Source: Polynucleobacter sp. AP-Melu-500A-A1
GTDB taxonomy: Bacteria > Pseudomonadota > Gammaproteobacteria > Burkholderiales > Burkholderiaceae
NCBI RefSeq assembly: GCF_018882125.1
Contig: NZ_JACVOZ010000003.1
Span: 62,001-126,000, forward strand
DNA: 64,000 nt
Direction of reading: 5' to 3'
The notes beneath the pieces are model-generated. The model did no database searches. It was not told where the DNA came from and was given only the letters and a program-made list of their open reading frames with translations. Positions 29,030-39,932 of the stretch are shown here, in pieces; positions within the stretch are counted from its first letter, which is position 1; each line of letters opens with the position of its first letter. The position numbers and the translations under genes are program-made.

Positions 29030-29461
29030 TTGGTGATATTGATTCAACCCTGGCAGGAAGCTTCTAAAGCAGCTTTTGCCATACGCCATAAAGTCTTCAT
29101 TGAAGAGCAAGGGGTCCCCGAAGACCTTGAGTTAGATGAATTCGATCAACTGGCAATGCACGCTCTTGCTTTTCAGGGGTCTGAGTGCGTTGGAACAGGC
29201 CGGCTTGTCAATATTGGCGGGCAAAATGGGCTAATTGGTCGGATGGCCGTTCTTCCCCGCTTTCGCAATAATGGGTTTGGGCGCGCCATTCTAAAAAAAC
29301 TGATGGATCAAGCACAGGAAGAGGGTATTGTGAACCTCATGCTCCACTCGCAAGTTACCGCCATCCCTTTTTATGAAAAACAAGGTTTTCAAATACAGGG
29401 AGGCATTTACGATGAAGCGGGTATTCCACATCGTAATATGATTCATCTATTACCGAAATAA
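29030..29461 (+). CDS. GNAT-family N-acetyltransferase
   Basis: The 143-residue protein has the GNAT acetyl-CoA loop in IGRMAVLPRFRNNGFGRAIL and the ElaA/YjcF-like opening AFAIRHKVFIEEQGVPEDLELDEFD, followed by a C-terminal beta-bulge GFQIQGGIYDEAGIPH. The substrate is unknown. The start is uncertain: TTG at 29030, GTG at 29033 or TTG at 29039 are possible, and no ATG is available near the conserved N-terminus. The thioesterase gene follows after 12 bases. Confidence 0.85.
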   Translation: MVILIQPWQEASKAAFAIRHKVFIEEQGVPEDLELDEFDQLAMHALAFQGSECVGTGRLVNIGGQNGLIGRMAVLPRFRNNGFGRAILKKLMDQAQEEGIVNLMLHSQVTAIPFYEKQGFQIQGGIYDEAGIPHRNMIHLLPK

Positions 29462-29473
29462 ACCTACTCTCGA

Positions 29474-29893
29474 ATGACTACTGCCCCTACTCCATATTTG
29501 CATCGCGTTTGTTACTCTGATACGGATGCGGCTGGCTTTGTGTACCACGGACGCTATCTAGAAATTTTTGAGCGCAGTCGCGCTGAATGGCTCTATCTAC
29601 GCGAACTCAGTCCCACCAAGCTAATCAATGAGTTTGGAATTCTGTTACCTGTTCGCGAGCTCACCATGCACTTTTATAAGCCTGGGCGCTTGGATGATCT
29701 ACTCTATATCGATCAAGTCATTGAACATCGAGGGCGTACTCGGGTTGCAGTTAAGCAAACCGCAAGTCGTATAGTTCACGAGGGCAATGGGGATGATTTA
29801 CAAATTATCGCTAGCGCCCTACTGCATATTGTTTGTGTTGATACTAAAACCTTGAAACCCAAAGCGATCCCAGATTGGTTATTTGTTGATTGA
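29474..29893 (+). CDS. YbgC/FadM-type acyl-CoA thioesterase
   Basis: A 139-residue single hotdog-fold thioesterase of the 4-hydroxybenzoyl-CoA/YbgC family. It has the catalytic motif YSDTDAAGFVYHGRYLEIFERSR, in which the Asp and downstream Tyr/His define the site. The usual partner genes (tolQRA) are not adjacent. It overlaps or abuts the next gene and follows a GNAT gene, so the three are probably one transcript. Chain-length preference is not predictable. Confidence 0.88.
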   Translation: MTTAPTPYLHRVCYSDTDAAGFVYHGRYLEIFERSRAEWLYLRELSPTKLINEFGILLPVRELTMHFYKPGRLDDLLYIDQVIEHRGRTRVAVKQTASRIVHEGNGDDLQIIASALLHIVCVDTKTLKPKAIPDWLFVD

Positions 29894-38076: not shown

Positions 38077-38595
38077 TTACTTTTTTCCACCAGACGATTT
38101 CTTTACAAGATCATCTATGTTCTTTTCGGCAGCTTCTGCTACCTGGTTAACAATTTTTCTACCTTCTTTAAACATATTCTGTCCAGTAGCAGACATTTCA
38201 TTAACCACTTTAGATAACTTATCTGCGTGAGCTGGCATTTTATTTTCAGCATCCTGTAGCCAATTCACTAAAGAGCTGCGAACTTGCTCAAGGTGTTTTT
38301 CAGTTTCATCGGCAGCGCCTTCGCTAATATCCTTGAGTACTGATTTCACCTTCTTTTGGTAAGAAGCTGCTCGCTTAGTGGCTTCTTTCGCCGCTTCTGC
38401 TTGCAAGTCCTTTAACTTCTCCATGTCATGTTTAGCGGCAGATTTAGCGCTATCCAAGGCATTTTTCATGCTCCATTCCATCTCAGCAATATGATGCTCA
38501 CTTAATTGTTTAGCGGCATATAGCAGCTTATGCGAATACTCAAAAAGCTCTTTTGCTTTTTCTCTTTGCCATTTTTGTAGATCATTTGCGTCCAT
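38077..38595 (-). CDS. Phasin-like amphipathic helical protein
   Basis: The 172-residue product is almost entirely charged helix and heptad-like, with many Lys/Glu/Ala and no predicted export signal. It resembles phasin_2-type proteins that coat polyhydroxyalkanoate granules, for example NALDSAKSAAKHDMEKLKDLQAEAAKEA. The C-terminal KKSSGGKK is basic. No PHA synthase is in the window; a 3-hydroxybutyrate dehydrogenase lies 24 kb away. The call is by composition, so treat it as tentative. Confidence 0.6.
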   Translation of the reverse strand: MDANDLQKWQREKAKELFEYSHKLLYAAKQLSEHHIAEMEWSMKNALDSAKSAAKHDMEKLKDLQAEAAKEATKRAASYQKKVKSVLKDISEGAADETEKHLEQVRSSLVNWLQDAENKMPAHADKLSKVVNEMSATGQNMFKEGRKIVNQVAEAAEKNIDDLVKKSSGGKK

Positions 38596-38702
38596 TTTGA
38601 CTCTCCCTTAAAGTAAGCGTTCCTGAAGTACCCTCCATATACTCTAAACCCAAAATCTGTAAGTGCCAATTCCCCCCTTTATCTAGGTATTAAAATGGGA
38701 GG

Positions 38703-39060
38703 ATGAGTGAACCAAAATGCCTCTATGACAGCATTGGCGGAATCGATAAAGTCGAGGAATTGGTCGATCGTTTCTATGACCTCATGGTCCTAGATCCCAG
38801 CTTGACTGAGTTGCGGGCTATGCATCCTCAGGACATCTCTAGCTCAAGAGAGAAATTGAAATTTTTTCTAACCGGCTGGATGGGCGGTCCTGACATCTAC
38901 TCCCCAAAATATGGCCATCCCATGCTAAGAGCGCAATCAATGGTTGACGTGCATGTATCAAGCCTTGGAAGATTGCGGTATTGATGGGAGCATCGCCAAA
39001 CAGCTAGAAGAATCTTTTTTCAATACGGCTGACTGGATGCGTAATCAAGCCAACGAATAA
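38703..39060 (+). pseudogene. Group II truncated hemoglobin, broken by an internal frameshifting deletion
   Basis: The first 78 codons read as a trHb2 globin (YDSIGGIDKVEELVDRFYDLM, FFLTGWMGGPDIYSPKYGHPMLRA). The ORF stops at 38984. The missing C-terminus continues in the next frame from about 38929 (ERNQWLTCMYQALEDCGIDGS... NQANE) to a TAA at 39060. The family segment between LRA and ERNQW, holding the proximal histidine (RHLPF in relatives), is gone. A GAGCGC at 38929-38934 fits a microhomology deletion of length congruent to 2 modulo 3. The ORF product lacks the heme-ligating His. An assembly error is possible. Confidence 0.75.
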
Positions 39061-39170: not shown

Positions 39171-39932
39171 ATGATTGAAAGCTTCCTGCAACTTATTAGC
39201 GACCCAAATGCCTGGATAGCCTTCTTAACGCTCTCCGCCCTTGAAATTATCTTGGGTATAGATAACATTATTTTCATTAGCGTCATCGCCAATCGCCTTC
39301 CCATTGAGATACGGGAAAAGGTTCGTCGCTTTGGCTTGATATTTGCCCTGGTAACCCGCATTCTTCTATTGCTGAGTCTATCTTGGGTCATGGGCTTAAC
39401 TAAGCCGCTATTTACCCTGTTAGATCAATCGATCAGCGGTAGAGATTTAATATTATTATTGGGCGGCTTCTTTTTGATATGGAAAGCCTCAAAAGAAATC
39501 TATACTGAAGTAGAGGTCGGAGATCATACAGAGGGTGAGGGGAATAGTCATATTTCTCACACCAATAAATCAATGTCCGCTTTGTTTGTAGGTTCTGTTC
39601 TGCAAATTGGACTACTCGATATCATCTTCTCGCTAGATAGCGTCATTACTGCAGTAGGCATGGTTGATGAAATTAGCATCATGATCGCCGCAGTTATGGC
39701 CTCCGTGATGATCATGCTGGTTGCCGCAAAACCGATTGGTGATTTTGTGCATCGGCATCCTTCTATCAAAGTATTAGCGCTCTCTTTTCTGACGGTAGTC
39801 GGCGTAGTACTTATTGCTGAGGGTATGGGAATGCATATTCCCAAGGGATATGTCTACGTAGCAATGGCATTCTCCTTATCTGTAGAGCTTTTAAATATTC
39901 GCTCAAGAGAGAAAAAGAAAAAGTTGAAGTAA
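39171..39932 (+). CDS. TerC-family integral membrane protein
   Basis: TerC/YgaP-type proteins export metal ions such as manganese, or act in tellurite resistance. The 253-residue protein has seven or so helices and the family motif ALEIILGIDNIIFISVIANRLP, with the second signature LDIIFSLDSVITAVGM. The acidic residues in these phrases (GIDN, SLDS) are the presumed metal ligands. It stands alone; I do not see a manganese riboswitch in the short leader. Confidence 0.9.
   Translation: MIESFLQLISDPNAWIAFLTLSALEIILGIDNIIFISVIANRLPIEIREKVRRFGLIFALVTRILLLLSLSWVMGLTKPLFTLLDQSISGRDLILLLGGFFLIWKASKEIYTEVEVGDHTEGEGNSHISHTNKSMSALFVGSVLQIGLLDIIFSLDSVITAVGMVDEISIMIAAVMASVMIMLVAAKPIGDFVHRHPSIKVLALSFLTVVGVVLIAEGMGMHIPKGYVYVAMAFSLSVELLNIRSREKKKKLK

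Follow-up and report, generated by a model that had tools for sequence, protein, structure and literature searches.

A truncated haemoglobin gene of a freshwater Polynucleobacter, probably inactivated by a single recent 35-nt deletion

The 64,000-nt stretch of DNA analysed here (the window) belongs to a freshwater Polynucleobacter bacterium and contains, at positions 38703–39060, a group II truncated haemoglobin (trHb2) gene split over two reading frames. Very probably, the gene has been inactivated by a single 35-nt deletion, with a short-repeat route around the motif GAGCGC as its probable origin; the break appears recent and isolated, and the gene itself dispensable and repeatedly lost in the genus. 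According to the proposed course of events, a formerly working gene was broken in this species or strain, most likely through short repeats around GAGCGC, either by slippage or by end-joining; 12 residues including the proximal histidine would have been lost and the frame shifted, leaving a 93-residue fragment. Since both the histidine segment and the frame are lost, this product should not hold haem. The locus is a well-supported new, young and ordinary pseudogene, the cause of which was correctly guessed in a preliminary description of the window.

The coordinates of the two frames and of the flanking genes are given in Table 1. The first frame is colinear with the family from its start codon to the junction and then continues out of frame; the second frame, ERNQWLTCMYQALED...NQANE, resumes at family residue 90. 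The start codon, junction motif and terminal stop codon are located where the preliminary description had placed them, and the Pfam Bac_globin profile (PF01152) matches both pieces: the first frame at profile positions 2–73 (E = 1.7e-22), and the second at positions 83–121 of 121 (E = 0.0046; 17.6 bits, which alone is below the 21-bit cut-off). The profile is not matched as a whole domain; the two matching pieces are in different frames and the middle of the profile is absent.

Table 1. Features of the split trHb2 gene and its flanks (window positions)
Feature	Position	Strand	Description
Phasin-like gene, divergent neighbour	38077..38595	-	Intact, 172 aa; phasin name is the authors' reading, zero NCBIfam models matched
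trHb2 N-terminal part	38703..38933	+	77 codons (family residues 1–77) from ATG at 38703, MSEPK...GHPMLRA; frame intact, tyrosine at residue 25 retained
GAGCGC at deletion junction	38929..38934	+	35-nt segment with the proximal histidine gone here
Out-of-frame tail of first ORF	38934..38984	+	TGA at 38982–38984; ORF total 93 residues
trHb2 C-terminal remnant, other frame	38935..39060	+	NQWLTCMYQ...NQANE, TAA at 39058–39060; tryptophan at family residue 92 retained
TerC-like membrane protein gene, downstream	39171..39932	+	Intact, 253 aa; NCBIfam TIGR03716/TIGR03717 below cut-off

The reference set comprised 130 full-length copies from 129 Polynucleobacter genomes, one of which (G182) gives two. 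All of these copies align gap-free to one 129-residue copy and all possess a histidine at residue 79, as well as Tyr25 and Trp92, which we take to be the TyrB10- and TrpG8-type positions; the division of the window gene into two frames is, therefore, not a matter of chance. Both the tyrosine and the tryptophan are retained in the window remnants, and the segment with the histidine is missing. Relative to G103, the intact copy with the best alignment score, the window gene differs by a sole indel, a deletion of 35 nt with zero inserted bases. This is one codon more than the approximately 32 bases proposed earlier; the earlier frame argument stands, as 35 is congruent to 2 modulo 3. The original length is likewise better put at 130 residues than at the 129 first suggested, since the window copy ends one residue past the 129-residue query copy. 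In-frame stop codons are present in three of the 130 copies (G031 at codon 8, G017 at codon 49 and G037 at codon 127), and the alignment of G104 opens with a stop codon.

Removal of the proximal histidine by a deletion, as originally claimed, is supported by comparison with relatives. The lost segment is present in all 130 copies, including that of the nearest species (G136), which excludes the possibility that all relatives share the short form. Orthologues at the same site, where the phasin–globin neighbourhood is kept, are full length in G136, G103 and G159. From the alignment and general knowledge of the family, the missing histidine is assigned to position F8; a published family analysis of truncated haemoglobins (PMC4720485) describes HisF8 as a strictly conserved residue that coordinates the haem. 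Across the histidine segment, the intact G103 protein aligns with 18 different sequences of solved structure (E ≤ 0.001), the best being 5v3t (1.3e-28). The window gene retains the TyrB10-/TrpG8-type residues of group II (O-type) truncated haemoglobins of PF01152 (PDB 5v3t, 2bkm, 1ux8 and 2bmm) but, unlike them, has lost both its continuous reading frame and a 35-nt segment that includes the proximal histidine.

As with short-repeat deletions in bacteria, the deletion is simple, contains no inserted bases and has a short possible homology at the junction. The preliminary description had called it a microhomology-type event; the alignment shows a deletion without insertion, and microhomology is plausible rather than proven, two GAGCGC sites being present in only one of 130 relatives. 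That relative, G037, is an intact-length copy of the kind that the description had proposed to look for, with GAGCGC at both ends of the segment, the two copies lying exactly 35 nt apart. GAGCGC occupies the right-hand site in 39 of the 130 copies and the left-hand site in six, and the GAGCGC retained in the window could derive from either end of the lost segment. The window junction shares 6–8 bases with the right-hand flank in 55 of 130 relatives, including eight bases in G103, the next nearest relative; the nearest species, G136, has GAACGC at this site and shares only three bases. When the two sites of each relative are compared with each other, the number of shared bases is 0 in 88 copies, 1 in 38, 2 in one, 4 in two and 6 in one (n = 130), which, with at most one base in 126 of 130, speaks against a frequent repeat at exactly these points in the genus. 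As a control, only eight of 47308 other positions match the window junction over at least six bases; this is weak evidence of microhomology, because the junction bases in the window may come from the right-hand copy. A short-repeat (microhomology) deletion is the likely route, and the cases that could be constructed cover repeats of about 2–8 nt.

The lesion is confined to the globin. A screen for decay set the window against ORFs, each 90 residues or longer, of the corresponding regions in two other genomes: 108 from G103, of which 88 gave hits, and 109 from G095, of which 52 did. The globin alone among gene-like ORFs was matched in two or more frames; the sole other multi-frame case was a short ORF on the strand opposite a whole gene. 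Cases marked as short comprised antisense ORFs, small ORFs, genes truncated by the window edge and, from G103, a 286-residue ORF whose counterpart, at window positions 29030–29893 and likewise in G095, is two adjacent ORFs. General decay of the window is ruled out, no other real gene being frame-broken relative to G103 and G095; since the globin alone is affected among gene-like ORFs, the window is not decaying and the lesion is isolated. Endosymbiotic Polynucleobacter necessarius (Euplotes symbionts), which is described as having many pseudogenes in a genome of about 1.6 Mbp (PMC5018217), belongs to the same genus and likewise shows inactivation by small lesions. In contrast, the genome studied here is 2.29 Mb in size, the neighbours of the globin are whole and a single lesion is seen rather than genome-wide decay. 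Searches of the open-licence literature listed no paper on this gene in Polynucleobacter.

The age of the break can be approached through constraint. Where a ratio was obtained, dN/dS (NG86) between the window gene and nine intact copies was 0.021–0.057, against 0.015–0.071 among intact copies; many of the pairs were saturated or gave no estimate. The window gene departs at two residues from positions conserved in at least 90% of copies, the median being one. Relative-rate tests against six outgroups assign 5–7 unique residues to the window and 2–4 to G136; the window exceeds G136 in all six tests, none of them significant (p = 0.096–0.74). Both halves are about as constrained as intact copies, which suggests that the break is young; synonymous divergence between the window and G136 is near saturation (about 1 to 2), and a long period of neutrality is unlikely, as many more changes would then be expected. 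Of the period since the window and G136 diverged, the break may cover only a short fraction, perhaps less than one tenth.

Near-unchanged constraint in both halves is also expected under an error of assembly or consensus, which would have skipped 35 nt between short repeats of a gene that is intact in the strain. The absence of clear relaxation in either half, the wholeness of the surrounding genes and the division of the assembly into 10 contigs (2,286,920 bases) agree with such an error; however, the repeat is at most about 8 nt, far below the length of the words usual in assembly, completeness and contamination of the genome are put at 99.99% and 0.06%, and the unique residues, although not significantly in excess, are more numerous in the window than in G136 in every comparison. 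In addition, the same gene is similarly broken in isolation in another species, G017, by a stop codon amid neighbours without stops. An artefact is considered unlikely, yet it is the risk that the main reading carries. A loss that preceded the split from the nearest relatives would also account for the broken reading frame, but G136 and G103 are full length and the remnant does not carry the changes of long neutrality, having few more unique residues than G136; full-length sister copies together with near-normal constraint rule out an old pseudogene, and such an origin is given practically no weight.

Low dN/dS of each half in its own frame could further be read as a sign that the short form is still used, either as a functional 93-residue fragment or, through ribosomal frameshifting, as a joined product of about 118 residues that lacks the histidine of the F helix. 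The short form is found in zero other species, none of the 130 copies lacking the segment, and the haem-ligating histidine is strictly conserved in the family according to the analysis cited above (PMC4720485); the low dN/dS is accounted for by the recency of the break. Continued use of the short form is, on this evidence, very improbable. Programmed frameshifting was rejected as a candidate: relatives are without the short form, and inspection by sight revealed no obvious slippery run at CTAAGAGCGC. A recent inactivating deletion remains the preferred reading.

The broken globin of the window is most readily understood as an instance of a wider pattern, the repeated loss of a dispensable gene. 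A PF01152 match is present in 137 of 186 genus genomes (the genome studied here, G000, included), or in 112 of the 144 genomes with at least 90% completeness and at most 5% contamination. Broken copies were found in six genomes: the 35-nt deletion in G000, stop codons in G017 and G031, a 1-nt deletion in G036, several indels in G051 and 1-nt indels in G147. The globin is absent at a further set of 18 loci that retain the phasin. The gap between phasin and TerC is 511–644 or 1531–1587 nt in 53 intact loci and 161–246 or 1172–1235 nt in the 12 of these 18 globin-less loci for which the retrieved sequence also includes TerC, as expected if the globin alone had dropped out of two gene arrangements. 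For loci with a gap of about 1.2 kb, substitution of another gene for the globin was considered and rejected, this gap corresponding to the 1.5-kb arrangement minus the globin.

In a phasin tree, the window joins G136 (SH-aLRT 93) and then G103 (99), both with an intact globin. At least 15 changes between the intact and lost states are needed on this tree, and when only well-supported branches are used, the intact label still requires at least 10; the tree was built by a quick search from one short gene (125 rows, 513 columns), with 53 of 122 inner branches weakly supported, and does not separate loss from regain by transfer. The loss counts cover loci whose retrieved sequence contains a phasin match at 60% identity or more, G051 being kept at 55%; G037, with its stop at codon 127 of 129, was scored as intact, and G151, where the globin runs off the contig, is in the tree and was counted as neither lost nor intact. 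In G031, G036 and G051, breakage extends to further genes around the globin; in G017 the neighbours are without stops, and one gene is hit, at one of its ends, in two overlapping frames. In G031 and G051 (loci L142 and L144), both the phasin and TerC genes next to the broken globin are broken or truncated. The phasin gene of G037 (G037:C1:1210729-1211163) contains six in-frame stops, and the adjoining globin stops three codons before the usual end.

G000 yields a single PF01152 match, the broken gene, and no other intact copy; a second, weaker PF01152 match is present in some other species of the genus. The classical globin and flavohaemoglobin profile (PF00042) has no match in any of the 186 genus genomes, the present one included, and matches 3 of 14 control genomes. 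Since the only PF01152 gene is broken and PF00042 is absent, the strain seems to be without a working globin. A broader proposal, tentative and somewhat short of probable, is that the lone trHb2 of Polynucleobacter is niche-dependent and repeatedly switched off in both free-living and decaying genomes; the window would then record a switch-off within the life of the species, possibly a strain polymorphism. If this is true, the losses amount to natural replicate experiments on the role of a lone bacterial trHb2. Species pairs with and without the gene (G000/G136, G003/G139 and G017/G071) could reveal the purpose of a lone truncated haemoglobin, because most of these genomes apparently have no globin other than trHb2, and this gene has been lost many times.

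The flanks of the globin have features of their own. A block, ACTCTAAACCCAAA...TGCCAAT, is located at 38641–38670 between the phasin and the globin; it is present at 95 of 172 loci, including other arrangements, persists where the globin is gone, and may be a promoter or operator of the phasin gene. In many species, the globin site and TerC are separated by a gene of about 325 residues (L034:1947-2924, L182:1894-2886 and L229:849-1823), which by sight encodes a tripartite tricarboxylate-type binding protein; it is missing in the window arrangement. The TerC-like gene is also patchy, matches with E ≤ 1e-30 being confined to 92 of the 186 genus genomes. Phasin-like matches number seven in G000 and one to five in the other genomes listed.
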